Origin: a virus
Reading direction: 5' to 3' (one strand)
Virus record (IMG/VR): IMGVR_UViG_3300018420_000156
Span: 1-20,461 of that record
Length of the DNA: 20,461 nucleotides
Of the stretch, positions 1,495-20,461 are shown one piece after another (positions within the stretch are counted from its first letter, which is position 1; every line of letters starts with the position of its first letter). The notes beneath the pieces are model-generated. The model saw nothing but the letters and a program-made list of their open reading frames with translations. It was not told the DNA's origin and searched no databases. The position numbers and the translations under genes are program-made.

Positions 1495-1896
1495 ATGAGT
1501 GCAAACAACCGACGGGTTCGTCGGCTTATCGTAGACATCCTATGGAAACATGGGGCTATGACTAAAGAAGCAGTTGCACAAAGGCTTTCTAGTGATAAAA
1601 ATGTTAGGGCAGTACCTTCACCCCATAGTTTATCGGCTCTTTTATCTAAGAATCCTCAGATTGTTGCTGTCGGCTCTGAGAAAGTAGAGAATGCTGTCGG
1701 CCTAAAGGCTAGTCATCTTATTTATGACATAAATAGAGATTTAATCAAGGCAGAAGAGGACATAGTTTATAGTCGTACTCCTACCGTGATGACACCAACA
1801 CAAAGGAGACAAGCCGAACAATGTACGTGTGGAAGGATAAGGGTTTTTCCACCGGATTCAAAGGTTTGTCTACATTGTGTTAGGAATAATTCATAA
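1495..1896 (+). CDS. Winged-helix DNA-binding protein with C-terminal zinc knuckle
   Basis: 133 residues. The N-terminal half (about 5-80) reads as a winged helix: helix RRLIVDILWKHG, then MTKEAVAQRLS, a recognition-type helix SPHSLSALLSKN, and a strand pair PQIVAVGSEKV. The C-terminus carries a probable zinc site, C110-x-C112 and C125-x-x-C128. A DNA-binding regulator or replication-initiation accessory is the natural reading, with transcriptional control of viral genes most likely. It has no visible ribosome-binding sequence and a TATA-like box exactly 31 bases upstream, so it is probably read from its own leaderless mRNA. The exact family and target are not identified. Confidence 0.65.
   Translation: MSANNRRVRRLIVDILWKHGAMTKEAVAQRLSSDKNVRAVPSPHSLSALLSKNPQIVAVGSEKVENAVGLKASHLIYDINRDLIKAEEDIVYSRTPTVMTPTQRRQAEQCTCGRIRVFPPDSKVCLHCVRNNS
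1890..1896 (+). promoter_or_regulatory. Weak TATA-like box
   Basis: TTCATAA overlaps the TAA stop of the wHTH gene, 29 bases before the ATG at 1919. It resembles the TTTATAA boxes found at other gene junctions here, but has a C in the third position and is two bases off the common spacing. A ribosome-binding GGAG at about 1905-1908 also serves this start. Confidence 0.25.
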
Positions 1897-7202: not shown

Positions 7203-8009
7203 ATGATTACCGTTGATGGCACGTCTTTAACGTGGTTACTTACCTTGTCCCAAAGAAAGCAAAATGTTTCGGGAAAGGTAACACCACAGGTTCATTCTTT
7301 AATGATGAGAGCAGCAAGTGGTAGACTTACTGCTTGCTCTCTTGTCAAAGATGGTCTTACTTCATTGACTTTGTTGTCTATACCTTGTTCCGGTGAAGGA
7401 GACTTTGCTATATCTGATATAGAGGCATTTTTGGGTGCATTGAAATATCATGGTGGTGTTATTAGATTGGAGATTGGAGAAGATAAAATTATCTTAAAAT
7501 CATCTAACAAACAAACTACTATGACTTCTTCTGATAAGGCTCTAGCATTTCCTCACACATCTTCTAATGTAGCAGAGTGGGAAGCGAAATCTGTTAGGTT
7601 GGCTACGAAGATAGATTTGACTGATACAACATATATGCTCAATAGTGGCGCTAAAAGAAAGCCGTTTGCATCTTGGGAGGGTATTGATACCACTACCTTA
7701 TACGAGGCGTTTAGATGCGACAATATGAATAATCAAAGATATAACAAATACAAAATAATTTCTGACGAAAATGGTTTATGTGTAGAAGTTGGAAAACAAC
7801 TTAAAGGTAAAACTATCTCTCAGATTGACCCGAAACCACAAGATGTATTTGAAGCCGACTACAATGGCGGTTTAGAGTATGTTTTCAAAGAGTTGACAGG
7901 AACGGCTGATATACACTTCTTTAACTTTGTACCCGAAGGACAGGGTATTAGAATGCTAATTACATTAGGTGATGGCGACTTTATTTTCCAAGCAGGTAAC
8001 TTGGGGTGA
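7203..8009 (+). CDS. PCNA-like DNA sliding clamp
   Basis: 268 residues, close to the 245-260 of archaeal PCNA. It has the two-part feel of a clamp monomer: an N-terminal half with alternating strands (LTSLTLLSIPCSG, VIRLEIGEDKIILKSSNKQTT) and a C-terminal half ending in three strands (ADIHFFNFVPEGQ, IRMLITLGDGDFIFQAG) like the last strands of PCNA. The connector region contains EWEAKSVRLATKIDL. No single motif is diagnostic. The call depends on size, strand pattern and position between a recombinase and PolB in a virus that also has a clamp loader. It would ring DNA and tether PolB. The ribosome-binding GGAGTGA lies inside the preceding gene's end, five bases from the ATG. Confidence 0.65.
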   Translation: MITVDGTSLTWLLTLSQRKQNVSGKVTPQVHSLMMRAASGRLTACSLVKDGLTSLTLLSIPCSGEGDFAISDIEAFLGALKYHGGVIRLEIGEDKIILKSSNKQTTMTSSDKALAFPHTSSNVAEWEAKSVRLATKIDLTDTTYMLNSGAKRKPFASWEGIDTTTLYEAFRCDNMNNQRYNKYKIISDENGLCVEVGKQLKGKTISQIDPKPQDVFEADYNGGLEYVFKELTGTADIHFFNFVPEGQGIRMLITLGDGDFIFQAGNLG

Positions 8010-8013
8010 TTAA

Positions 8014-8274
8014 ATGGATATAGAAATGACAGGATTAGAATTAGGGAAAAACAAAAGAATGATTGACGGGTACGAGGTTACTATTACCATAATACCTACT
8101 GACTCACAACCTCTGTATAGAGATTATGAGTGGCTACACGCACAGTATGTAAAACACAATAAGAATATGCAAACTATTGCTACCGAATGTGGAGTAACGC
8201 CTATGTGTATCAATAACTGGCTACGTCGCCACAACATTGATACCCGTAGTAGAGGCGCTAGAAGGTTGGATTGA
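8014..8274 (+). CDS. Small helix-turn-helix DNA-binding protein
   Basis: 86 residues. The C-terminal half matches the HTH found at the start of many HNH endonucleases and phage regulators: YRDYEWLHAQYVKHNKN (35-51), QTIATECGVTPMCINNWL (53-70) as the helix-turn-helix, then RRHNIDTRSRGARR. No HNH or other catalytic residues follow, so this is a stand-alone DNA-binding domain, either a regulator or the remnant of a homing-type endonuclease. The N-terminal 30 residues look like two beta strands (YEVTITIIPTD). It lies four bases after the clamp gene and is probably co-transcribed with it and polB. Confidence 0.7.
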   Translation: MDIEMTGLELGKNKRMIDGYEVTITIIPTDSQPLYRDYEWLHAQYVKHNKNMQTIATECGVTPMCINNWLRRHNIDTRSRGARRLD

Positions 8275-8275
8275 T

Positions 8276-8422
8276 ATGGTTAATTACACACAGCGTTGGC
8301 CTAACTGTGAAAGATGTGGGGCTAATTTTTCTTGGGTTTTTGTAGAACATATAGAAAATGCCGAGATATATGAATGCGAGCATTGTAATGACCTTAAGAT
8401 ATTTAGGCATGATGTGGAATGA
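8276..8422 (+). CDS. Zinc-ribbon mini-protein upstream of polB
   Basis: 48 residues starting at ATG 8276, one base after the HTH gene's stop; an in-frame upstream start at 8237 would overlap that gene heavily and is less likely. Two CxxC knuckles (C11/C14 in NCERCGANF and C34/C37 in ECEHCNDL) with about 19 residues between them make a rubredoxin- or ribbon-type zinc site. Its stop overlaps the polB ATG (ATGA), so it is tightly coupled to the polymerase. No enzyme activity is likely at this size; a protein- or DNA-binding accessory is plausible. Similar small CxxC proteins occur before three other replication genes here. Confidence 0.65.
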   Translation: MVNYTQRWPNCERCGANFSWVFVEHIENAEIYECEHCNDLKIFRHDVE

Positions 8423-10656
8423 TTGTAGAGAAAACTAATGGTAGAAATGTTCTCATAAGGGCTAGAGACAGTAATGGTAAAAGATACGAGAAAACTATTA
8501 GTGGTTACTGGCCTTACTGTTACATAGAAGATGCGAACGTACCATATGTTGCAGAGGCAGTAAGGACTGAGGCAGGTTATACTGGATTGTATGGCGAGTC
8601 TCTGACTAAAGTATATTGCGCCACGCCTCACGATGTAAGACAGGTATCTTATGCAGGGCCTACATGGGAAGCAAATATACCTTACACAAATAAAGTGCTA
8701 TGTGATTATATTAATGACGGTAACGAACCTATACCTAACTATAAACATAGAACATGGTATCTTGATTGTGAGTGGTCGCCAACGACAGGACACATGAGAG
8801 TGATTGTAGCCTATGATAATTTTACCGGAAAAGAATATGTATGGTTTGTAGAAAATACACTTTCCGATAGAGACTTAAAGGATGGTGAAGGTGTACCGTA
8901 TTCTGAGTTAGGAGAATACAAGTACGAAACGCCCGCTATGGGATTCCCTAGTGAGCGTTCTATGCTTATACATTTTATGAGAATACTAAAGAACTGCGAC
9001 CCCGATATTATTACAGGGTGGTATGTAGTAGGTGCTGACATAAAGCAGATAGTAGAGCGTACTAGAGCGTGTGGGCTGCCTTCCTATGCTCTATCACCAC
9101 TTAGACGATTAAGGTATGAGTATGGTGATTGGGAACAACCAATAGTGGGTAGGAATTGTATAGACTTGATGCTTGCTGTTTCTAAACTATGGGAAATGAA
9201 GAATGGAAAACTACCCTCTTACAAACTAAACGACGTAGCAGAAGAAATATTGGGGGAAAAGAAAGTTGAGTTAGAAAAAGGACACGATGAATCTTGGTAT
9301 GAAGATAGAGATTTGTACATACATTATTGTAGACAAGACGTTAGGTTACTACCTAAGTTAGATGATGCAGTAAACGCATTGGATTACTACACAGCATTAC
9401 AACACATTGTACAATGTGAGATAAAAAGTACGCCCTTTATCACTAAGATGTTTACTAACTTAGTTTTAAGAGATAAGCAGTTTGATAGAAAAATACCTAC
9501 GCAACCTCAATTCGCTAAAGTAGATTATGAGGGCGCTGAGATTCTAAAGGTAGAGGCAGGTGTATATGATAACGTAGGTATCTTAGATATAAGAGCCATG
9601 TATCATTCCAATGCTGCTAAGTATAACATCAGTTGGGACACACTAGATGAGAACGGTGTAGATTGTGGTAATGGTTCTAAGTTCACACAGGGAGAGCAAG
9701 GATTACTAGTAAGACAAATGGAATTGATGACTGGCTTTAGGAGTGAGTTCAAGATGAAGATGATTATGACCGAAGGTGATGAGAAAAAGAAGTGGGATTG
9801 TATGCAGTTTGCGGCCAAGACCCTTGTTGCTTCTATGTATGGTGTGGCCGGAGATGCTAAGTTTGGTATGTATCACCCCGAAATAGCGGCTGCTATTACA
9901 TACACGTCTAGGCAGACTCTAGGACAACTTATGGATGAGGCTAAAAGGGTAGGGTTTGACGTTATCTATGGACATACTGATTCTGTATTCTGCGTTATAC
10001 CTACACCGGAAGAAGGTCTACAAAAATTAGAGTTAATTAATGAAAGAATGAAGCCCATTGTTACTGAGTTTGAGAAGTGGTGTTCTCGTATAATAATGGT
10101 GGCTAAGAATAGATATACAGGTATGGTTACTTGGACTGATGGTAAGTATCATGAGCCAAACATTTACGTTAAAGGTATTGAGATGAAGCAATCTCGTATG
10201 CCTCCTGTTATGAAAGCCGCCATGTTAGATACTATTACCGGAATATTAACTAATGAACAAGAGTCTGCTGTAACCGATAGACTGTCTGCTATGGTAGATT
10301 CAGTAATCAAGGGAGAAACAGACCCAATAGACCTATGTATGAAGGGTAAATTAGAGAGAGATATAAGCCAGTATAAAGTACTGTCCGGCTCATCAGCAGG
10401 TGCGGCATGGGCTAACGAATACCTAGGTAAAGGATATAGAAAAGGCTCATTCTTTTTAGTTACCTTAAATGAAAATGGTAAGTATATAGCATTTGACAAC
10501 CCAAAGGATGTAGAGGGAATAGAAACCATAGGCAGTAAGGTTATGGTAGATAGATTTGTCATAAAAAAAATAAAGCCATACTTTGATTTGGCGGGGTGGA
10601 GTACGCAACCGATAGAAAATGCTAGAAATGGTTTAGCAAACATGGGTTGGGTATAA
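8419..10656 (+). CDS. polB: Family B DNA polymerase with proofreading exonuclease
   Basis: The replicative polymerase, 745 residues and compact for the family. Exonuclease: Exo I YLDCEWS (Asp116, Glu118), Exo II region DPDIITGWYVVGAD (194-207, retaining Asp207 but with Tyr for the usual Asn) and Exo III YCRQD (303-307). Polymerase: motif A DIRAMYHS (390-397) for the usual DFxSLYPS; motif B KTLVASMYG (467-475), with Ala for the usual Asn of NSxYG; motif C YGHTDS (517-522), keeping catalytic Asp521 but with His for the first Asp. A thumb-side KGIEMKQSRMPP (585-596) matches the KGiExxRRdxP region. The essential carboxylates are all present, so it should be active. It works with the viral clamp and clamp loader. 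Confidence 0.97.
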   Translation: MIVEKTNGRNVLIRARDSNGKRYEKTISGYWPYCYIEDANVPYVAEAVRTEAGYTGLYGESLTKVYCATPHDVRQVSYAGPTWEANIPYTNKVLCDYINDGNEPIPNYKHRTWYLDCEWSPTTGHMRVIVAYDNFTGKEYVWFVENTLSDRDLKDGEGVPYSELGEYKYETPAMGFPSERSMLIHFMRILKNCDPDIITGWYVVGADIKQIVERTRACGLPSYALSPLRRLRYEYGDWEQPIVGRNCIDLMLAVSKLWEMKNGKLPSYKLNDVAEEILGEKKVELEKGHDESWYEDRDLYIHYCRQDVRLLPKLDDAVNALDYYTALQHIVQCEIKSTPFITKMFTNLVLRDKQFDRKIPTQPQFAKVDYEGAEILKVEAGVYDNVGILDIRAMYHSNAAKYNISWDTLDENGVDCGNGSKFTQGEQGLLVRQMELMTGFRSEFKMKMIMTEGDEKKKWDCMQFAAKTLVASMYGVAGDAKFGMYHPEIAAAITYTSRQTLGQLMDEAKRVGFDVIYGHTDSVFCVIPTPEEGLQKLELINERMKPIVTEFEKWCSRIIMVAKNRYTGMVTWTDGKYHEPNIYVKGIEMKQSRMPPVMKAAMLDTITGILTNEQESAVTDRLSAMVDSVIKGETDPIDLCMKGKLERDISQYKVLSGSSAGAAWANEYLGKGYRKGSFFLVTLNENGKYIAFDNPKDVEGIETIGSKVMVDRFVIKKIKPYFDLAGWSTQPIENARNGLANMGWV

Positions 10657-10659
10657 AAC

Positions 10660-10668
10660 TTTATAATA
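10660..10668 (+). promoter_or_regulatory. TATA box for the nuclease/primase unit
   Basis: TTTATAATA begins 31 bases before the ATG at 10691, just after the polB stop. An alternative TATAAAA lies at 10652-10658. A ribosome-binding AAGGTGAG at 10678-10685 would serve read-through messages from polB. Confidence 0.5.
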
Positions 10669-10690
10669 GTAGTAATAAGGTGAGATAAAT

Positions 10691-10978
10691 ATGAAAGATG
10701 AAGATGTGCAGACATTTATGCGAGAGACTGTCAATATAATACAACATATGAGTATAGATATAGTAAAATTACAAAGTATGATGTATAACTTGTTAATTGA
10801 TATAGATAAGATGGATAAAGTTTCTTGCCACTCTTGTGGTGAAGAAATTATGAGGCCGATATTACCTAATATACCACTAGAAGATATGTGTCCTATGTGC
10901 GGCTCTGATTTGTTTGATAAGAGTCAAACCTCTTTTGAGGATTGGGATAACGGAGTTGTTTCCGATGAAAGCGAGTGA
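10691..10978 (+). CDS. Zinc-ribbon protein with helical N-terminus
   Basis: 95 residues. The first 42 form a likely amphipathic or coiled helix (TVNIIQHMSIDIVKLQSM, then LLIDIDKMDK). The rest holds a classical ribbon with C46/C49 (SCHSCGEE) and C67/C70 (MCPMCGSD), and an acidic tail. The helix suggests oligomerisation or docking on a partner, and the ribbon DNA or protein binding. It is the first gene of the last plus-strand unit, overlaps the Cas4-like nuclease by 14 bases, and is preceded by a TATA box. The family is unknown. It belongs to the set of small CxxC proteins placed just before replication enzymes. Confidence 0.75.
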   Translation: MKDEDVQTFMRETVNIIQHMSIDIVKLQSMMYNLLIDIDKMDKVSCHSCGEEIMRPILPNIPLEDMCPMCGSDLFDKSQTSFEDWDNGVVSDESE

Positions 10979-11816
10979 ACAACAAATAAAAGAATCATCA
11001 TACATACCAAGTAATAATTCTTCCTTAAGAGTAAGTAAGTCATCTTTTATGACTTACAATATGTGTCCTAGACAATATTATTGGCGTTATGTTGCTGATA
11101 TACCTACTCCACCACGTACAGAAGAAATGATTCGTGGTGTCGCCATACATAATGTTATGGAGAGAGGTTTATTAGACGGTGCTGACGTGCTGATGGAAGC
11201 GGCAGCAGAAGAAGGCGTAGCAGACGATGACGGAGTTGATTCATTAAACCTTCTATTGCATCAAATAGCCTATGATATGGGTGGATTCGAGGTTGTAGAG
11301 GCAGAAGTAAAACATCAAGTTTATGAAGAGGTAAACGGACAGCCTGTTGTATGGGTTGGTTTGATAGATGGAGTGCTTAGGCATCCCGATACAAAACAGT
11401 TGATTTTAGTAGAACTAAAGACAGGCAATATGTCTATGTCTAAATTAAGTAGAACCCGTAAAGAATTAGTTTACTATACAAGATTACTTAGAAAATTAGA
11501 TTATGATGAAGTCTCTCACTTTTTATACATCAGTCCCGATTACGAATATGACGTAGAAGATAAATTATTATTGGAAGGTAATAAGAGAGGTAAAACTATG
11601 TGGATTGGTGCAGAGAAAGGTTTCGCTCTTTTAGAGCCATTTAGAGAAAGGTCGTATAAAATATTTGAGGAATCATTATATGACACTATTGAGTCTCTTA
11701 CTTCCCAACAATGGCCTATGAATTGGAATGATTATTTCTGTCCAATGTGGTGTGATTTTTCACTAGATTGTGAGGCAGAATTGAACGGCATTAAGGAGTG
11801 GAATACAGATGAATAA
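10965..11816 (+). CDS. Cas4/RecB-like PD-(D/E)XK nuclease
   Basis: A 283-residue nuclease of the Cas4/RecB/AddB type, expected to process DNA ends or ssDNA during viral replication or recombination. In order: VSKSSFMTYNMCPRQYYWRY (23-42) with Cys34; GVAIHNVMERG (59-69) with the motif-I His62; VGLIDGVL (131-138) with metal-binding Asp135; ILVELKTG (147-154) with Glu150 and Lys152; the helix ELVYYTRLL; and C-terminal CPMWCDFSLDC with Cys259, Cys263 and Cys269. With Cys34 these form the four-cysteine iron-sulfur clamp of Cas4 and AddB. The ATG at 10965 is preferred to a TTG-led frame from 10914. No cas genes or arrays are nearby, so it is a replication nuclease, not CRISPR adaptation. Confidence 0.9.
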   Translation: MKASEQQIKESSYIPSNNSSLRVSKSSFMTYNMCPRQYYWRYVADIPTPPRTEEMIRGVAIHNVMERGLLDGADVLMEAAAEEGVADDDGVDSLNLLLHQIAYDMGGFEVVEAEVKHQVYEEVNGQPVVWVGLIDGVLRHPDTKQLILVELKTGNMSMSKLSRTRKELVYYTRLLRKLDYDEVSHFLYISPDYEYDVEDKLLLEGNKRGKTMWIGAEKGFALLEPFRERSYKIFEESLYDTIESLTSQQWPMNWNDYFCPMWCDFSLDCEAELNGIKEWNTDE

Positions 11817-11970
11817 ACCGGAAATAATATGTCAATCTTGTGGAGAAATGGATGCTTGGGAAGGCGAAGAAGAAGTTTGGAGAATAACTGGGCAAGAAGG
11901 ACACAAGCCGGAATTGATGACGTTATTAGCCTGTTCGTGTGGTGCAACTTATACTTTTGCGGTGGAATGA
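11809..11970 (+). CDS. Zinc-knuckle mini-protein upstream of primase
   Basis: A 53-residue gene whose ATG (11809) lies in the last eight bases of the nuclease gene and whose stop is three bases before the primase ATG. Cysteines: C8/C11 (ICQSCGEM) and C42/C44 (ACSCGATY), a probable zinc site joined by an acidic, Trp-containing linker (DAWEGEEEVW). No known family. Gene order and tight spacing suggest it is made together with, and perhaps acts with, the primase. Confidence 0.65.
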   Translation: MNKPEIICQSCGEMDAWEGEEEVWRITGQEGHKPELMTLLACSCGATYTFAVE

Positions 11971-11973
11971 TAT

Positions 11974-12981
11974 ATGTTATTATTCCCTAGAGAGATTGGG
12001 CTTCGTCGTTCACAATGTTTTTCCCGTAAAAGTTTTGATGAATACATAGATAAGGTAAACGGAAAAGCATCCTGTTACACTTCCCTCTATGCATTCCAAA
12101 GGAAAGACCCCACAAGACCTTGGAAATACGATGTAGAGAGTGTTATTATAGATAGAGCATGGTGGGATTTTGACATTGAAGAAGGTGGCTCTATGAATGA
12201 TGTAAAGAATGATGTTGCTACGCTCATATCTCGCCTAGACGGTGATATAAGAACTGTATTTACAGGTAGGGGTTTTCATGTACACCAAATGTTTAAGCGG
12301 CCTGTAATAGGTACTAGTATCGCTAAACACATAGATAGGTACGAAAGAAGTGTGGCTAAGGATTTACCTACATTAGATGGTGTAGGACACCCACAAAAAC
12401 TTACTAGAATACCAAACACTTACAATACGAAGAGAGGTAGATGGGCAGTCAATATACCTACCGAAGATTTTGTAAAAGACCCACTAAATTATGATATTCC
12501 TACTACTCCCAACAAAGATTATAATATACATGACCCATTTAGAGGTAAAGTTGTAGATAGTGATTTTGATATAGTAAAATGGATTGCTAACAACCCAATA
12601 CCTAAAGAACTAAACACTAATGTATTTCATGGAGAAATCACTTCTTCCGGTCAAATACCCGTACCACCATGTATTGCTTCTGCTATGACTCACGAAAACC
12701 CTAAACACCCTGTTAGGTTGGCTTTAGGGTATCATTTAGTAGAAAATCTTAGACTCTTTGCTGACCCAAAAACTTTGTCTATGACTGACAAAAGAAAGAT
12801 AGTAGATGAAGCAGTTGCTTTTATCGAAAAACTAAAGTGGAGAGACTTCAAACCTAGTATGTCTAGGATGCAATTATTTTCTATCATAGACCACGAACAA
12901 CCACCGTCTTGTTCTTGGCTATCTACTAACGTAGGGTGTAAAGGCTCTTGTTGGAGAGATGACGGTACAAGGAGAGAATGA
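11974..12981 (+). CDS. Archaeo-eukaryotic primase, PriS fused to PriL-like C-terminus
   Basis: 335 residues combining both primase parts. The catalytic (PriS/AEP) domain shows WDFDIEE (64-70) with Asp65 and Asp67, TGRGFHVH (97-104) for the sGxGfH nucleotide-binding motif, and KLTRIPNTYNTK (142-153) for the third motif. The C-terminal part resembles the PriL iron-sulfur domain: VPPCIASAM (230-238) with Cys233, HPVRLALGYHLVENL (245-259), then Cys313, Cys322 and Cys326, four cysteines in all as in PriL. In cells these are two proteins; here one chain would both make the primer and bind the initiating nucleotide. It should supply RNA or DNA primers for the viral PolB. The ATG is tightly linked to the preceding zinc mini-protein. 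Confidence 0.88.
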   Translation: MLLFPREIGLRRSQCFSRKSFDEYIDKVNGKASCYTSLYAFQRKDPTRPWKYDVESVIIDRAWWDFDIEEGGSMNDVKNDVATLISRLDGDIRTVFTGRGFHVHQMFKRPVIGTSIAKHIDRYERSVAKDLPTLDGVGHPQKLTRIPNTYNTKRGRWAVNIPTEDFVKDPLNYDIPTTPNKDYNIHDPFRGKVVDSDFDIVKWIANNPIPKELNTNVFHGEITSSGQIPVPPCIASAMTHENPKHPVRLALGYHLVENLRLFADPKTLSMTDKRKIVDEAVAFIEKLKWRDFKPSMSRMQLFSIIDHEQPPSCSWLSTNVGCKGSCWRDDGTRRE

Positions 12982-13142
12982 AAATGATGAACTTAATTAA
13001 TTTAACGGAAAAAGAAATGGAATGCTGCAACTTATGTAAGCACAATTGGACACTAAAAACAGAAAGAGAAAAGTATTGCAGAAGTTGTAATTCACATATC
13101 ATTATATTAGAGGGAGAAGTCTACCATACATTAGGATGGTAA
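12978..13142 (+). CDS. Zinc-ribbon mini-protein upstream of XPF-like nuclease
   Basis: 54 residues, starting in an ATGA overlap with the primase stop and ending one base before the nuclease ATG. C16, C17 and C20 (ECCNLCKHN), with C34 and C37 (YCRSCNSH), form a CxxC pair of pairs; the rest is a basic middle and a short C-terminal strand (HIIILEGEVYH). The pattern is that of a small one-domain zinc ribbon. The partner and function are unknown; coupling suggests a link to the primase or the nuclease. Confidence 0.65.
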   Translation: MKMMNLINLTEKEMECCNLCKHNWTLKTEREKYCRSCNSHIIILEGEVYHTLGW

Positions 13143-13143
13143 G

Positions 13144-13857
13144 ATGTTACTAGTAGATGATAGAGAAAACCCTAAAGTAGTTAATAAGTTGTTAATGCGT
13201 ATGGGTGAAAATAACGTAAAAGTATGTAGAATGGTGAGTGCTGATTATGCTATGGGAGATTGGGGCGTTGAAGCCAAAGAGATTAATGATTTATACCGTT
13301 CTATTCTTGGTATTGGTAGGAATAGAACTATCGTATCTCAGTTAAGAGATTTACAAGACAACTACGAAAACCCAGTCTTAGTAGTGTACGGTACAAAATT
13401 AAAACCCTATGTTCATGGGGGTAGACCGACAGCAAAACAAACTGCTATGGAAATGGCTAGAATGAAAAAAGTAAATACACAATTCAAGATGACATTTCAT
13501 CAAAGATTCCCTAAAATTAAGTATATGGAACTGGCTACAATGGAAGAGTTTATTGAATGGTTAGTAGTAAACCATACCCAACTAGGAATGGCCTTCTCTA
13601 GACACGATTCAGATACACAAAAAGCCATAAAAAAGAGCGATTTAGACCCAAGAATCCAAATCTTATCTTCTGTAAAGGGGGTAACACCTACTATGGCTAA
13701 AGATTTGCTAGAAGAGTTTGGTAGCATACCTAAACTACTAAGGCTTAGAACTACACAAAAGGCAGTTATGGCTGTTAAAGGTGTAGGTAGACAAAGAGCG
13801 CAAGATATACTAGCCCTTAGAAATAATCTAGACGATGTACCACTTAAGAAAGAGTAG
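13144..13857 (+). CDS. XPF/ERCC4-type nuclease with helix-hairpin-helix domain
   Basis: 237 residues, comparable to the compact nuclease part of archaeal XPF/Hef. The ERCC4 domain opens with LLVDDRE (2-8, for the usual vDxRE). The active-site motif that is normally VERK reads VEAK (42-45) followed by EINDLYRSI (46-54), so the Arg is replaced but Asp, Glu and Lys remain. GRNRTIVSQLRDL (58-70) matches the next conserved helix. Residues 174-225 hold paired helix-hairpin-helix motifs (VKGVTPTMAKDLLEEFG, VKGVGRQRAQDIL), which bind DNA and mediate dimerisation. It should cut branched or flap DNA during replication or recombination-dependent packaging. Its last 14 bases are shared with the convergent tail gene. 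Confidence 0.9.
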   Translation: MLLVDDRENPKVVNKLLMRMGENNVKVCRMVSADYAMGDWGVEAKEINDLYRSILGIGRNRTIVSQLRDLQDNYENPVLVVYGTKLKPYVHGGRPTAKQTAMEMARMKKVNTQFKMTFHQRFPKIKYMELATMEEFIEWLVVNHTQLGMAFSRHDSDTQKAIKKSDLDPRIQILSSVKGVTPTMAKDLLEEFGSIPKLLRLRTTQKAVMAVKGVGRQRAQDILALRNNLDDVPLKKE

Positions 13858-16800
13858 AGAATCTAGCAGAGGAAGAAGGGGTATGTGCAACTGCTCTTTG
13901 CATTTTCACATCTATGTTGTGTAAAACAACAGATGTTTCGTTTGCTGTATCATTTCCTGTGTTTGGCTTTCTAGTTATTGTTATCTTAATATTATTACCA
14001 ATAGTATCTAAACCTTTTAGTGGAGTAGTAGGTACTAAAGTGATTGTTTGTTTGTCTAGTCCTCTTCTTACATTTACAGTAGTGTCAATGATTTGTCCTG
14101 TCTCCACACATTCTGTACTTACATAAAATACTGCATAATCTGTAATTGACAAGAACTCACTATGGCTTACGCAAGCAGTTACTTTTATCCTATTACTTAA
14201 CACATCTTCGGGTACTACAAAGGATGTTTCTACCGATACTTCTTGGCTTGTTATAGAAGATGTTTCTTCTCCTTGTAATCCTTTACCCGCAAAAATATAA
14301 CCTTCTGATGTCAAGGATGCTGTACCACTTATCGGTGTTATGTCAACACTCATACCCTCTATACCTCTCATAGAAGAAGGAGTAGAAGGTACAGGGGTTT
14401 GACCTAAAATACTAAACTTAGAATCTCCCGATAACATATCATTTTGTAGATTCATTCTGTTATTATTACTTAATGATGGACTTCTTTTACCTCTAGAAAA
14501 TGTTGCGGTTGCTTCTTGGTTGCCGTCGTCTCTAGCACCCGTTGTTTTTTGGTTATCATCATCTAAATCTACATTAGGTGGGTTACTAGGTATAGGCACA
14601 TAACCACCTTGTTCATAAACTCCCGATGAAATACCACTAGACGAACCTTGTGTTTGTGAACTACCTAGTTGTATGTTTTGTGTTACTTCGGGGAATATTA
14701 ATGACATTAAACCTTCGGCAGCAACGGATTCATCTCTTTCTAATGATAAGTTAACACTTTCAGTTTTTCCCGCTTGTACACTCCAATTTATTCTTTGTAT
14801 TACTAGATTTTCAGAAGTAAGACCTAAACCTGCATCAGTCAATGTAACATAGGTAGCGGGGTTGTAAGAAACATCTCTAGTTATCAAAACCTTGGGTGCA
14901 TACCATTCTGCTCTAGTAGTCTTAAATCCACCACCCATTTCGCTGTATTCTCTCATACCTAGAGGGAATATTGTGTTAGTGTTTGTTGCTACCTGCGCTA
15001 AGATATTAGCGTGTGTTGGGTCGCCACATCTATGACGCAGTAAAGCCCTACAATATTCTGCGTTAAAACTAACTACCATGTTACCTACGCTTGTATCGCT
15101 ATATGTCGAAGGTAAAGCCAACTCATAAAAACCACTATGTTTTACATTTACGCTTGCTGCGCTTTGGCTTGTCGCTGTTCTAGTTTCACCGGAAAAAGAA
15201 TAATCTGCTACGTGTATAGTAAACTCAGCGTTGTCTATATCTGTTCCCGATTGACCGCTTTTCAAATCTACCCATATACGCATAGGATGTGAATGATTAT
15301 CGCTAACAAGTGGTGTGTTGTTAGGTATATGCACTATCTGTACAGCATTAGATACTGAACCACTACCATACCAATAATAATTATCATCCCAAGAAATATC
15401 GCCACTTGTTGTAGCATCTTTACTTACACCATATCTAGAATATAAGTTAGTAGATGTTTTCATATTACCATCTAATGCGTTTACCATACCGTTAAACAAC
15501 GCACCACCTGTACCTAATCTAGTCCAGTTACACACTTTAGTATAATCATCATCTGTGCCTTGTAAAGCCACGTAAGAATCTGCTATGTAACCGTATCTAC
15601 CTGTACCTATCATCTTATATTTTTCTCCCGACTCTAATATAGGCTCTACATTTACTTTTATAGGTGAGTTTTTGTATCTATTATATTGTTGCTTTGCTAT
15701 AATTTGCGCCTCAAAACTTTGTGTGATAGTAGGATATTCTAATATCTTCCATCTAGTAGTGTCTGTTAGATTTGTTGCCGGCCAATCAACAAAACTTTTA
15801 CCGTTATTGTAATATACTCTTACATTTGTAACTTGTGAAGTAGAGGCAGACTTGAAATTACTTATTTTCATATTACTTCTAGTCATACTTTTACCGCTAT
15901 TATATTTAGGTCTAAACTCTATTCTATTATCTCTACCTACTAGATAAGAAAAACTAGTATCTAGACTATTTTCTGTACCTATACCGGAGTTTGTTTCTAT
16001 ATTTTTAATAATAGAAAGTAGTGTTTTACCTTTACCATCTACTATTGAACCGTAACCATCGTTACTACTTGTAGAATTGTAAGTAGTCATTAGAGATGTT
16101 ATTGGTATATTGTTAATATCGTAAATTGATTTTACATTAGTTGGTGGCAACCAAGTGTCCATTATACAAGCATTCCATAATGTTCTAAACTTATCACTAT
16201 CCCAAAATGTACCACTATTCTTATTCTTTATTTCTCCCTCTACGTGCATCAATAAACGCAACATAAATTGACTATGTACAGTAGCGTGTACTTCATATGA
16301 TTCGGGGGTAGTTTCTGTTTCGTCTAGATTATAATTTGTTATAACTCCATAGTCATCCCAAGTTTGGCTAGTAGCCGAGTGTGCATCCCATATTGCTTGT
16401 TCTAGAGAAGTTAAATCTGTTTCTGCACTTGCACTTATACTATCTTCTTCTATCATAAATATTTTACCTAACTGTTTAGGTACTTCATATGTATCTCCTA
16501 TAACCCAATCCCCACTTACTTTCAACACAGTTTCGCTAACTACTTCAATAATATATTGTCTTGTGTACACACCACCTGTTATCTTCTTAATTAACATACC
16601 TTCCTTTAATCCGTCAGTTATATGGTCTGCACCGCTTGGTGCAGTTATTTGTGTACCTCCACCAACCAACGCTGCAACAGCACTTACGGCTGCCGGAGAA
16701 GTATAAGTCGCTTCTAATTTATTATGCCAAACAAAATAATATTCTTCTATATTTCTTTCATTGGCATTACTAGAAAACACAGTAATTAATTTACCAACGC

Positions 16801-19800
16801 CAGTATCGTCAAACTTAGTAGCGTCGTCAACAGGTATTCCTTTATCACCGTAAATAAATCCTTCACTTGCTATGGTAGCATCAGATATTAATCTATACTG
16901 TGCCGGATGTTCACCAGTAATATCTCCTGTTGTCTGATAAGTAGAAGTGGCTTCAGCCCAATAATTATCTATAAGGGCGGGGAAACCTTGTCTTGTTTGC
17001 ACATAATCGCCTAAGTCTGTACCTAGACCGGAAGCCTGTCCTGTTTTACCACCATTTGTATGTGTATTGAGATTAAAGAAAGGAGAAGAATCAATAAGCA
17101 TCAATGCACCTCCTTTATCTTCCCAATCATGATATGTAGATAAATCTTGTTCGCTACCTGTTGTTGTGTAGAAATAACCTTTTGAATCACTACCGCCTGT
17201 TATACTCATAGTAGCACTACTAAAATCGGTAGAAGTTACTAAGTAAGAACTTTGTGTATTTGTTATTGTGTGATAACCATCGTGAGAAGCAGTACCTACT
17301 AGGTAAACTAAATCACCGTTGGCAAAGCCTGTTATAGGAGTCGTGGCCGCATTTATTCTTAGTTTACCGCTACCATCGTTTTGTATAGGTGTAGAGGGAG
17401 AAAGATTTTTTGGGTCGCTGTAATTTACTGGCTTAGAAAAACCTTTTGTCGTTATAGGGTCAGAAGTAGTATCTATGTTCCATATATTTACGTCTTTATT
17501 TACCTCTAAAGTACCAAAGGTATCTACATTACCATCTGCGTCAAATTGGTCTGCATAATACATTTGTACTTCGTAATTATCCTCTAGGGGATATTGTAAA
17601 CCAAAACTAGTTTTTCTTTCTGAACCATCTGCGTCAGCCAAACCATTATTTCTCATGTCAGCCCAAAGCAACCATATATGTTTGTAATCATTACTTATAT
17701 TTTGGAACTTAATTTTGTGTCCCGAACCACTCATTGTAAAGTTTATGTATTTACAGCCCACTAAATAATATTTACTATTAGTATTTATTTTACCTTCATA
17801 AATAAACTTACCCTTAAAAGTATCTCCATACCATACTTCTGCTACCCCACTAGTGGGTGCGTTAGAATAAGCAGCACTACTTATTTCAATAGCCTTTGTA
17901 GATGAAGTAATAGATGTATCTACTATTGTTTGGTTGTCATAATTACTACCTACTTGTAATTCACCTATATTACCAAATTGATATTGAAACCACAATGATT
18001 TAGGTAAATCTCTCATCCATCGTGCGTGTATAGCCCTATATACTAAAGGTTCACCATTTGTTGTAACAAATTGATTAGTAACCCTACCAAAATCTTTAGA
18101 CCACTCAAACCTATCATTACTTGTTAATAAAGTATCTCCGTTTGCTGATACCTCAAACACAGAACTACCTGCATCTTTAGCACCGACAACACCAGTAACG
18201 CCTGTTAATATATTACTACTTTTACCTGTCCACGTAAACGTATCATTAGTGGTTGCACTATTAGCACTACCTATTTGTCCTGTACCACTAGTAGAAAAAT
18301 TACTTGCGTCGGCTAAAACTATTGTAGATGCTCCCGATGCTATTCCTATACTGGCCGTAGATTCAGCAGCATATACACCATGCTCTGCTAAAGAAGAAGG
18401 ATATTCAGTAAAGGTTTGCACTACCCAAACAGCAGTAGCAGTCCAAGTCCCACCAGTAGTAACAGTACTATTATAATTATTAAAATAACCTACTATTTTA
18501 TTTACGCTTTTTACTTTATGCCTACCTGTGTATGCAGCGTTAAGTGCAGAAGAATTATCCATAGCCTCTTGATTAATGTAAAAATAATCACCTACTTCTA
18601 AAGAAGGGTCGGCATTATAATATACATTCATATACCAAGGTCCATCGTGCGGTGTTAAATCGCTAAACTTTGGATGATTGCTATTGAATGCATCCCAAGA
18701 AGCCTTATTCGCAGCCATCAACAAGGGGTTTGATGAATCAAAACCTACCCAATTATCATAATCCGGCAAAGCACTTTGATGTTTTCCTATGTATATTATC
18801 TTTGCAGTTTCGGGAGAAAATGCTAAATCACCGGATGCAAAAGTTAACGTAGCACCACTAACTGCTGTTGGTGTTATGCCAGTAACATTATGATTAGTGC
18901 TTTTTATATCAACCGATGTTGATGTGGTAATAGTATGCGTACTACTATTAAGGTAAACTAAAGTATTACCTGATGTGTCTTTCTGAAATCCTATGATATT
19001 TATACCTTCATAATTATCTTCTATATCATTTGGACCATAAACTGGATTTTCGTTGTTATACATCTGTATAGGCAATCCTGAGTTTAGTTGTGTTCTTTGT
19101 GTTGATGTCTCTAGATAACTACTATCACTATCAAATCCAACATCACTACCTGTAAGTTTTAATTTAGTAGCACCTAGATTCATTATGTCTCTAAAACCTT
19201 GAGCGTCATACAACCAATAAGGAGTCTCAGATACATCGTCATTTAGTGCTTCCTGCCCTATTTCCCACAAAGGTACTTGTCTATCTAAGAATGATAAAGA
19301 GTCTTGCGCTGAAAAACTTAAAACTCTACTTCTTTGTTTTTGTGATATACTAAAATCACTTATTTCTCCCCTCCAAACTGGCCTGTCTATTCTAGAATTA
19401 ATGTCTGCAAAATACAATACATTCCAATCTAAAGGTGCAGTACTTGTAAATATATCACTTAAGTTTTCTACATAATCACTAGAGTTAGTTCCTGTTGAGC
19501 CACTTGCTCTTTTTGGGTCATCACTTATATCTACCTTAAAATTACTAATACCATTATTTGTTTTAGTCAAGTTGGCAGATAAAATCTGTACTTGTTCGCT
19601 AGTAGTTATGTCATCTGTAAGATACCTTACCATACCTACTCTATCTAGCATTAAATAAGATACATAACCAAAGTTACCATTAGATGATTCTTGACTGTTT
19701 ATAGTCATTTGCCAACCATACATATTTGACGGTGTAACTCCTGTACCACTAGCAAGAGAGCCGTTTAGTACAACTCTAGTACCATTAACATAAACATCGT

Positions 19801-20461
19801 ATTTACCTGTTGAGTATTTCATTACAAAATCAATATCCAACCAAGCATCATCGTTAGTATATGATTGTAAACTAGAGCCGTCATACAAAAGACCTTTAGT
19901 ATCGTATGCACTTATCGCTCCCGAAAAAGTATCGCTTAAGTCTAAAGTATAATCTATTTCCGGTGTACCGGAATGACCTGCATCAGATGTTAATAAGGTA
20001 GATGTCGGAGTAGGAAATCCTATCTCAAACTTTATACCTACTTCATCCCAATCATTAGAACCTACTGCAAAGAAACTTCTTACTGCTACTCTAGTAGTAA
20101 AAACGTCTCTATCTAATCTTGAGTTTAGTTTACCGTCATATATAATTGTAGGTACATCGGGAGAACTTGTGTTTGCTTTTCTAACTGTTTGTACACAAAG
20201 AAATGGTTTTTTTGCCGGAGAAGTAACTTCTGCAAATACTCTAGAGGGGGTAGTGCTTGTTGTTTGTAGTAATTTTTCTCCCATCCAAGAGCCTGTAAGA
20301 TGCGCTCTTTGTACAAAATCTCCTGTGGTAGAAATAAAACCTGCGTTTTCTGCCGCATAGTTTGTAGCGTCAAATCTTTTCATGTCTGCTCTACCAAATG
20401 TTGCGTCGTTTGCGCCAACAGAAACTAAGTAAGAACCGCTAGTATCGTGTCCATTTACAAA
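13844..20461 (-). CDS. Giant tail baseplate hub/adhesin-like protein, N-terminus outside window
   Basis: At least 2,205 residues. The frame is open to the window edge, so the ATG at 20383 (residue 1 in this numbering) is probably internal: upstream codons read GSYLVSVGANDATFGRAD without a stop. Order: a concanavalin/laminin-G-like domain (about 55-255, with WLDIDFVMKYSTGKYDVYVN); a hub segment (263-376) with PVWRGEISDFSISQKQRSR and LSFSAQDSLSFLDRQ, as in phage tail-hub (Gp37/gpD-like) proteins; about 1,050 residues of beta-rich insertion; the hub resumed (1427-1600, with GKTLLSIIKNIETNSG, IEFRPKYN, TNVRVYYNNGK) and again at 1855-1900; then a linker and a C-terminal beta domain. Likely a structural tail tip that recognises the host surface. 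Family assignment is from pattern only. Confidence 0.8.
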   Translation of the reverse strand, partial: FVNGHDTSGSYLVSVGANDATFGRADMKRFDATNYAAENAGFISTTGDFVQRAHLTGSWMGEKLLQTTSTTPSRVFAEVTSPAKKPFLCVQTVRKANTSSPDVPTIIYDGKLNSRLDRDVFTTRVAVRSFFAVGSNDWDEVGIKFEIGFPTPTSTLLTSDAGHSGTPEIDYTLDLSDTFSGAISAYDTKGLLYDGSSLQSYTNDDAWLDIDFVMKYSTGKYDVYVNGTRVVLNGSLASGTGVTPSNMYGWQMTINSQESSNGNFGYVSYLMLDRVGMVRYLTDDITTSEQVQILSANLTKTNNGISNFKVDISDDPKRASGSTGTNSSDYVENLSDIFTSTAPLDWNVLYFADINSRIDRPVWRGEISDFSISQKQRSRVLSFSAQDSLSFLDRQVPLWEIGQEALNDDVSETPYWLYDAQGFRDIMNLGATKLKLTGSDVGFDSDSSYLETSTQRTQLNSGLPIQMYNNENPVYGPNDIEDNYEGINIIGFQKDTSGNTLVYLNSSTHTITTSTSVDIKSTNHNVTGITPTAVSGATLTFASGDLAFSPETAKIIYIGKHQSALPDYDNWVGFDSSNPLLMAANKASWDAFNSNHPKFSDLTPHDGPWYMNVYYNADPSLEVGDYFYINQEAMDNSSALNAAYTGRHKVKSVNKIVGYFNNYNSTVTTGGTWTATAVWVVQTFTEYPSSLAEHGVYAAESTASIGIASGASTIVLADASNFSTSGTGQIGSANSATTNDTFTWTGKSSNILTGVTGVVGAKDAGSSVFEVSANGDTLLTSNDRFEWSKDFGRVTNQFVTTNGEPLVYRAIHARWMRDLPKSLWFQYQFGNIGELQVGSNYDNQTIVDTSITSSTKAIEISSAAYSNAPTSGVAEVWYGDTFKGKFIYEGKINTNSKYYLVGCKYINFTMSGSGHKIKFQNISNDYKHIWLLWADMRNNGLADADGSERKTSFGLQYPLEDNYEVQMYYADQFDADGNVDTFGTLEVNKDVNIWNIDTTSDPITTKGFSKPVNYSDPKNLSPSTPIQNDGSGKLRINAATTPITGFANGDLVYLVGTASHDGYHTITNTQSSYLVTSTDFSSATMSITGGSDSKGYFYTTTGSEQDLSTYHDWEDKGGALMLIDSSPFFNLNTHTNGGKTGQASGLGTDLGDYVQTRQGFPALIDNYWAEATSTYQTTGDITGEHPAQYRLISDATIASEGFIYGDKGIPVDDATKFDDTGVGKLITVFSSNANERNIEEYYFVWHNKLEATYTSPAAVSAVAALVGGGTQITAPSGADHITDGLKEGMLIKKITGGVYTRQYIIEVVSETVLKVSGDWVIGDTYEVPKQLGKIFMIEEDSISASAETDLTSLEQAIWDAHSATSQTWDDYGVITNYNLDETETTPESYEVHATVHSQFMLRLLMHVEGEIKNKNSGTFWDSDKFRTLWNACIMDTWLPPTNVKSIYDINNIPITSLMTTYNSTSSNDGYGSIVDGKGKTLLSIIKNIETNSGIGTENSLDTSFSYLVGRDNRIEFRPKYNSGKSMTRSNMKISNFKSASTSQVTNVRVYYNNGKSFVDWPATNLTDTTRWKILEYPTITQSFEAQIIAKQQYNRYKNSPIKVNVEPILESGEKYKMIGTGRYGYIADSYVALQGTDDDYTKVCNWTRLGTGGALFNGMVNALDGNMKTSTNLYSRYGVSKDATTSGDISWDDNYYWYGSGSVSNAVQIVHIPNNTPLVSDNHSHPMRIWVDLKSGQSGTDIDNAEFTIHVADYSFSGETRTATSQSAASVNVKHSGFYELALPSTYSDTSVGNMVVSFNAEYCRALLRHRCGDPTHANILAQVATNTNTIFPLGMREYSEMGGGFKTTRAEWYAPKVLITRDVSYNPATYVTLTDAGLGLTSENLVIQRINWSVQAGKTESVNLSLERDESVAAEGLMSLIFPEVTQNIQLGSSQTQGSSSGISSGVYEQGGYVPIPSNPPNVDLDDDNQKTTGARDDGNQEATATFSRGKRSPSLSNNNRMNLQNDMLSGDSKFSILGQTPVPSTPSSMRGIEGMSVDITPISGTASLTSEGYIFAGKGLQGEETSSITSQEVSVETSFVVPEDVLSNRIKVTACVSHSEFLSITDYAVFYVSTECVETGQIIDTTVNVRRGLDKQTITLVPTTPLKGLDTIGNNIKITITRKPNTGNDTANETSVVLHNIDVKMQRAVAHTPSSSARFSTLS

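Follow-up and report, generated by a model that had tools for sequence, protein, structure and literature searches.

Archaeal zinc micro-proteins are known as a class. The haloarchaeal C(P)XCG micro-proteins (PMC11241148, PMC10716476) are cellular proteins of less than 70 amino acids (aa) with two short cysteine pairs, and five of the 14 archaeal zinc micro-proteins purified in the former work were zinc-free, so that metal binding by the proteins discussed here is presumed. PMC4929162 gives TIP and NreA as small or C4-bearing archaeal binders of the sliding clamp PCNA. Among viruses, the Hafunaviridae haloviruses HRTV-25, HRTV-27 and Serpecor1 have annotated zinc-finger or CxxC mini-genes close to the family B DNA polymerase (PolB) and a Cas4-like nuclease. 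We analysed IMG/VR virus record IMGVR_UViG_3300018420_000156 over its 20,461 bases (the window), in which small and large genes alternate from 8014 to 13857 in the order D86, a helix-turn-helix (HTH) protein, mini-gene A, PolB, mini-gene B, Cas4-like nuclease, mini-gene C, primase (Pri), mini-gene D and XPF-like nuclease (Table 1). B and C are conserved genes flanking the Cas4-like nuclease.

With 48, 53 and 54 aa, A, C and D match the haloarchaeal micro-proteins in size, while B, with 95 aa, is too long. The exact form of the motif also appears to differ from C(P)XCG, being CERCG/CEHCN in A, CQSCG/CSCG in C and CNLCK/CRSCN in D, and B and C stand in fixed slots of a viral replication operon, unlike the cellular micro-proteins. 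B is likened to TIP and NreA by description; it differs in being viral, in adjoining a nuclease and in having a motif without the second aromatic residue. In the Hafunaviridae, the Cas4-like gene lies upstream of PolB and the mini-proteins match the present families weakly (E 0.011 or worse). TFIIS ribbons carry an acidic hairpin, and C has a TGQEG-type stretch at the corresponding position. The TFIIS/RPB9 likeness is shared by some members of the C family, window C not being one of them, and C sits in a replication operon.

Relatives were collected with a PolB search, which gave 26 loci of 47-100% identity, and further loci were added with a primase profile, an XPF profile and two more divergent profiles; each of the four locus searches covers the 80 best among the 150 to 213 relatives that it gave. 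Genes were called in 333 records, and 81 non-redundant loci were kept (shared 5-mers at 35%). The gene caller was custom-built; after D had been missed, its cysteine-codon scores were raised to at least 0 and its threshold was lowered, an adjustment that favours cysteine-rich genes equally in all regions. Genes of at least 160 aa are termed large, slot counts are restricted to loci holding both flanking genes, and the recognition of B and C rests on profiles built in this analysis. Promoter, spacing and distinct-tail counts were taken over distinct proteins instead of the 81 loci, so that close relatives carry more weight in these figures.

The slots on both sides of the Cas4-like gene are nearly always occupied. 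At least one zinc-type mini-gene occupies the Cas4-Pri slot in 67 of 72 loci, the PolB-Cas4 slot in 63 of 71, the Pri-XPF slot in 34 of 65 and the PCNA-PolB slot in 27 of 71; the control intervals RadA-PCNA and GroEL-RadA gave 4/66 and 0/24. B was recognised in its slot 60 times and C 66 times, A and D 9 and 11 times, and three unrecognised mini-genes between Cas4 and Pri (L202, L258, L260) resemble C by eye. B and C thus hold one slot each, which they keep down to 47% primase identity (L104), while the other slots hold several families, so that there conservation concerns the slot more often than the sequence. In five large contigs followed end to end, 49 small genes lie within or next to the replication module and 24 of them are zinc-type, versus 25 of the 266 small genes in other regions (odds ratio 9.3, p 7e-10). 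The zinc share of the pre-PolB slot (34 of 139 small genes) was not above that outside the PCNA-XPF span (33 of 190, p 0.13). The cysteine-pair pattern is not due to chance, being present in 261 of 544 distinct small proteins versus 57 of 2720 shuffled ones (five shuffles each). The mini-genes are, where measurable, under purifying selection. Between the window and five close relatives, dN/dS (the ratio of non-synonymous to synonymous substitution rates) was 0.03-0.06 for A, 0.00-0.03 for C and 0.02-0.05 for PolB; it was 0.09 and 0.13 for B, in the two pairs with unsaturated dS, and 0.23-0.36 for D in four pairs, dS being 0 in the fifth.

A sequence-only reading of the window had described four small genes with two cysteine pairs, each overlapping or abutting the replication enzyme that follows it, and the coordinates bear this out. 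The 3' end of A overlaps the PolB start by 4 nucleotides (nt), the final 14 nt of B overlap the likely start of the Cas4-like gene (ATG 10965, the choice of our gene caller; the listed open reading frame opens at TTG 10914), C stops 3 nt short of the primase start and D 1 nt before XPF. On the upstream side, PolB and B are separated by 34 nt, and C and D overlap the ends of Cas4 (8 nt) and of the primase (4 nt), so that both also overlap the preceding enzyme gene, a point on which that reading was silent.

In relatives, B is found immediately upstream of Cas4 in 26 of 62 loci, and in the remaining 36 small genes alone separate the two. Large insertions were counted in 5 of 63 loci between PolB and B and in 4 of 68 between C and Pri, with none between B and Cas4 (0/62) or between Cas4 and C (0/68); pooled, 9/131 versus 0/130 (p 0.003). 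In the L023/L026 clade, large genes including GroEL lie between PolB and a B-like protein, which follows GroEL; in L023 Cas4 comes after the B-like protein and one additional small gene, and the L026 locus stops there. A TATA-like box about 30 nt upstream of the start precedes B in 52 of 80 distinct upstream regions (6.4 expected from shuffles), and boxes of this kind were found for RadA in 25 of 54 (2.0 expected) and for XPF in 16 of 71 (4.8 expected), and hardly ever before Cas4 (1/86), C (1/83) or Pri (0/85). The XPF gene of the window, with its 1-nt gap, has no such box. Boxes at this distance from the B and RadA starts would fit leaderless transcripts, and we infer that the natural unit is B-Cas4-C-Pri, in some lineages with D. 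B itself is built of a cysteine-free N-terminal stretch, a C4 ribbon and an acidic tail, and its PDB and Pfam matches are spread over numerous proteins, zinc-finger proteins among them. Many relatives (L241, L218, L195, L294 and others), unlike the window, encode between B and Cas4 a recurrent non-zinc protein of about 85-110 aa, whose tail is often rich in lysine.

C is tied to Cas4 at least as closely as to the primase downstream. Its start lies within the Cas4 reading frame in 68 of 90 distinct pairs, and at each of the four large insertions between C and Pri it remains with Cas4. The partial correlation of distances over 45 loci was highest for C and Cas4 (0.37; C and Pri, 0.14), although such mirror-tree correlations are weak for proteins so short and leave shared ancestry and contact indistinguishable. 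Seven of 45 members of the C family match Zn_ribbon_TFIIS at E <= 0.01 (best 2.2e-7), and the C profile matches PDB chain 1qyp at 1.5e-5. Readthrough from C into the primase, which is in frame in the window, was considered and rejected because only 12 of 79 distinct pairs are in frame. Two relatives carry tandem copies of C (L140, 6391-6686; L153, 6547-6823). In L263 and L302, the Cas4-like protein (start 6978) opens with a short CxC...CxxC motif that the other 69 examined do not have, and both loci retain B.

The dedicated pairing of mini-protein and enzyme proposed by the sequence-only reading therefore stands in part. The mini-genes are concentrated in the module, B and C are near-universal in the relatives examined and B is never parted from Cas4 by a large gene there; the idea does not hold as a rule that each protein sits before its own enzyme, C being at least as tied to Cas4 and D-type genes lying nearer to the primase than to XPF. 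As a general rule, assignment of a mini-protein to the enzyme after it is rejected on the spacing, promoter and insertion data. The proposed links of A with PolB and of D with XPF had been made to depend on related genomes not carrying these enzymes without the mini-proteins, and such genomes are common: the PCNA-PolB slot has no zinc mini-gene in 44 of 71 loci and the Pri-XPF slot none in 31 of 65, which counts against both links.

We then considered the C-terminal tail of B. The pattern Qxx[ILVMF]xx[WFY] is present in B tails of 27 of 64 non-redundant loci and in 52 of 83 distinct tails, versus 0.83 in shuffles. Within the last 30 residues of other proteins, it was found in Cas4 0/72, Pri 0/72, XPF 0/64 and PolB 3/76, in 10 of 573 unnamed genes and in 28 of 1227 shuffled sequences. 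The consensus of the PCNA-interacting protein (PIP) box, as given in PMC4929162, is QXXhXXaa, where h is L, I or M and two aromatics follow. The h position of the 27 tails is I or L in 14 and F or V in 13, the window included (by eye), and Q is present in 27/27 by construction. The virus has a clamp of its own: the protein at 7203-8009 is predicted to fold as a sliding clamp, its model having a predicted local distance difference test score (pLDDT) of 96.3 and P. furiosus PCNA (1isq_A) as the best Foldseek match (E 1.4e-10, probability 1.00). Its sequence gave no Pfam match and PDB profile searches gave nothing at E <= 1, so that the fold alone revealed the clamp.

These data suggest, at a probability of about 0.42, that B and C serve a viral nuclease-primase operon as core accessory proteins. 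In this operon, B would join the Cas4-like nuclease and, by its PIP-like C-terminal Qxx-hydrophobic-xx-W/F/Y motif, dock on the sliding clamp that the virus itself encodes. With B docked on both clamp and nuclease, the clamp tether would be supplied in trans. C, a small ribbon, may work with this nuclease too or with the adjacent primase, e.g. by gripping single-stranded DNA, and A and D would be optional, lineage-specific helpers. A more inclusive scheme is unlikely as a whole: swappable zinc micro-subunits, in which B, by ribbon and PIP-like tail, would tether the motif-less nuclease to the clamp, a second ribbon would couple nuclease and primase, and the other slots would be refilled by different families in each lineage.

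Several observations weigh against the accessory role proposed for B and C. B comes immediately after PolB in 55 of 63 loci, so that a role of B with PolB is possible, and the individual insertion contrasts are not significant (p 0.06 and 0.12). The B-like homologue of L023/L026 keeps the N-terminal part with neither ribbon nor tail motif. In 37 of 64 loci B has no PIP-like motif; being limited to part of the relatives, the motif does not allow a general tether role in such a form. By eye, the second aromatic is absent from all 27 tails, which is why we call the motif PIP-like and not a PIP box, and the window copy, QTSFEDWD, has F in place of the usual L/I/M. The pattern also occurs in the D family (3/11), RFC (4/31), PCNA (2/71) and the A family (1/9), and PolB has in aligned sequences an invariant W adjoining its C-terminus, which could be a clamp contact of its own. 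As for C, 63 of 79 distinct pairs have no more than 10 nt between its end and Pri, and a model of the read-through C-primase product, with the primase confident and C low (pLDDT about 44-66), gave no evidence of docking.

The mini-proteins could instead be small zinc transcription regulators like the haloarchaeal micro-proteins, brought next to enzymes by the tight packing of early operons. We consider this rather doubtful, although much is in keeping with it. Small CxxC proteins are many in HF1-like haloviruses, and PMC7230728 links such proteins to regulation; of the roughly 400 micro-proteins of H. volcanii, 49 are of this kind (PMC11241148). The three haloviruses with related PolB and Cas4-like proteins have their nearby mini-genes, though these are not clearly homologous to B or C; TFIIS/RPB9 ribbons are matched by some relatives of C, and the zinc share before PolB is not above the local background. 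Regulators placed by packing would hardly give the single slots held by B and C down to 47% primase identity, nor the roughly ninefold excess in odds of zinc-type genes in the module over the rest of the genome, and a long N-terminal stretch with, in some relatives, a tail resembling a clamp motif is unexpected for a bare regulator.

Close spacing also invites the view that the mini-proteins are zinc domains split off from the enzymes that follow them, C replacing the zinc module that cellular PriS has within its own chain. The viral Pri has the archaeo-eukaryotic primase (AEP) fold and yet no paired cysteine motif (0/72), C lies within 10 nt of it in most pairs, and all 27 distinct A-PolB pairs overlap at the PolB start. 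Such a fission appears improbable, since no fused PolB, Pri or XPF was found, C stays with Cas4 and away from Pri at the four large insertions, D-type genes of relatives are nearer to Pri than to XPF, and the two Cas4 proteins that open with a C-pair motif are still accompanied by B. A small protein with a PIP-like tail might also inhibit the clamp or serve host takeover, blocking host or viral PCNA like TIP of Thermococcales, with no tether involved; we regard this as very improbable for B, which is encoded within the virus's own replication operon beside a nuclease, by a virus that encodes its own clamp. We retain, tentatively, the accessory role of B and C with the nuclease.

The fusion history suggested by the sequence-only reading, in which the zinc ribbons were once part of the enzymes, found little support: the paired motif occurs within PolB in 0/74, Pri in 0/72, XPF in 0/64 and Cas4 in 2/71. 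The common fusion is instead to the D86 HTH protein: in 11 of 71 loci (including L188, L195, L263, L302, L181 and L182) its N-terminus carries a zinc-type ribbon, and none of these loci has a recognised zPOL gene. The pre-PolB slot contains at least three families besides these ribbon-bearing HTH proteins. The post-primase slot has two main families and several single cases, and L073 carries both families side by side. Members of the D family are within 10 nt of the primase in 27 of 32 distinct pairs and within 10 nt of XPF in 9 of 29; for the second D-type family, with which PHROGs gave nothing useful, the figures are 6/14 and 0/14, and both large insertions near it are on the XPF side. D of the window adjoins both enzymes, unlike the usual spacing in relatives. 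We infer that A and D help in the same general way as B and C, each being optional and confined to particular lineages. For a single family of paralogues, profile comparisons (four with hhalign, probabilities 19 to 60) gave no good evidence, and the cysteine pairs alone are perhaps behind the scores.

The fifth zinc-type site noted earlier, at the end of E, is present as claimed. The winged HTH label given to E had no Pfam match at E <= 1 and a weak match to a PHROG of unknown function. In 16 of the 17 loci that include the stretch before RFC, a zinc-type protein is encoded no more than three genes ahead of it, and its family varies; in most of the 16 the C-terminal end resembles that of E of the window.

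Two of the enzymes are assigned as follows. The Cas4-like protein scores 44.0 bits with PDDEXK_1 (cut-off 22) and so has a PD-(D/E)XK domain; C-terminal cysteines are visible in its translation. Pri, for which PDB searches with primase profiles gave nothing at E <= 1, is in its predicted structure an AEP/Prim-Pol fold, the fold alone being informative, with VIA Z 14.0 to the CRISPR-associated Prim-Pol 7nqe (175 residues, root-mean-square deviation 2.9), 11.3 to P. furiosus primase and a Foldseek E of 4.3e-5 to 7p9j_B. A 2179-aa protein is encoded on the minus strand at 13844-20383, directly after XPF, and a similarly long gene is found there in many relatives.

Table 1. Replication genes and cysteine-pair mini-genes of the window.
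Feature	Position	Strand	Remarks
E, 133-aa protein	1495..1896	+	C-terminal CxC/CxxC zinc-type site; upstream of clamp-loader gene
Viral sliding clamp (PCNA-like)	7203..8009	+	Predicted fold
D86, HTH-type protein	8014..8274	+	Pfam HTH_23 0.0057 (below curated cut-off); PHROG matches to 1.7e-9
A (zPOL1), 48 aa	8276..8422	+	CxxC/CxxC mini-protein; lineage-specific
Family B DNA polymerase (PolB)	8419..10656	+	Pfam DNA_pol_B 1e-26
TATA-like box	10660..10666	+	About 30 nt upstream of B start; window sequence
B (zHEL), 95 aa	10691..10978	+	CxxC/CxxC; core gene; PIP-like tail QTSFEDWD
Cas4-like PD-(D/E)XK nuclease	10965..11816	+	Pfam PDDEXK_1 3.4e-11
C (zPRI), 53 aa	11809..11970	+	CxxC/CxC zinc-type ribbon; core gene
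Pri, AEP fold	11974..12981	+	Predicted structure
D (zX1), 54 aa	12978..13142	+	CxxC/CxxC mini-protein; lineage-specific
XPF-like nuclease (ERCC4 + HHH)	13144..13857	+	Pfam ERCC4 1.5e-9, HHH_5 1.2e-7

Judged by gene content, the virus fits a marine archaeal virus of the Magrovirales type: PolB, AEP primase, clamp, clamp loader and GroEL, which belong to the content given in PMC10768690, are present, and GroES has a weak match (Cpn10 0.014, below cut-off). When GTDB genome contigs were searched for the host with primase patterns, 26 stretches matched and 0 were confirmed. We found no text on the mini-genes: the word zinc is absent from the main texts of PMC10160649, PMC10768690, PMC12999244, PMC7318539, PMC5628999, PMC8651126 and PMC12451623, and the founding magrovirus paper may show some of the genes. 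The available part of PMC7544198 mentions both magroviruses and zinc, the latter for polymerase motifs and not for these genes.

In these ocean viruses, B and C are thus retained nearly as often as the neighbouring enzymes, and yet they are unremarked in the magrovirus texts named above; their shortness may be the reason why core replication genes of such viruses stay so. Clamp, B, nuclease and C form a small set of four proteins that can be tested together. If B is a clamp tether, the replisome of these viruses would have its clamp-binding peptide encoded by a gene of its own.

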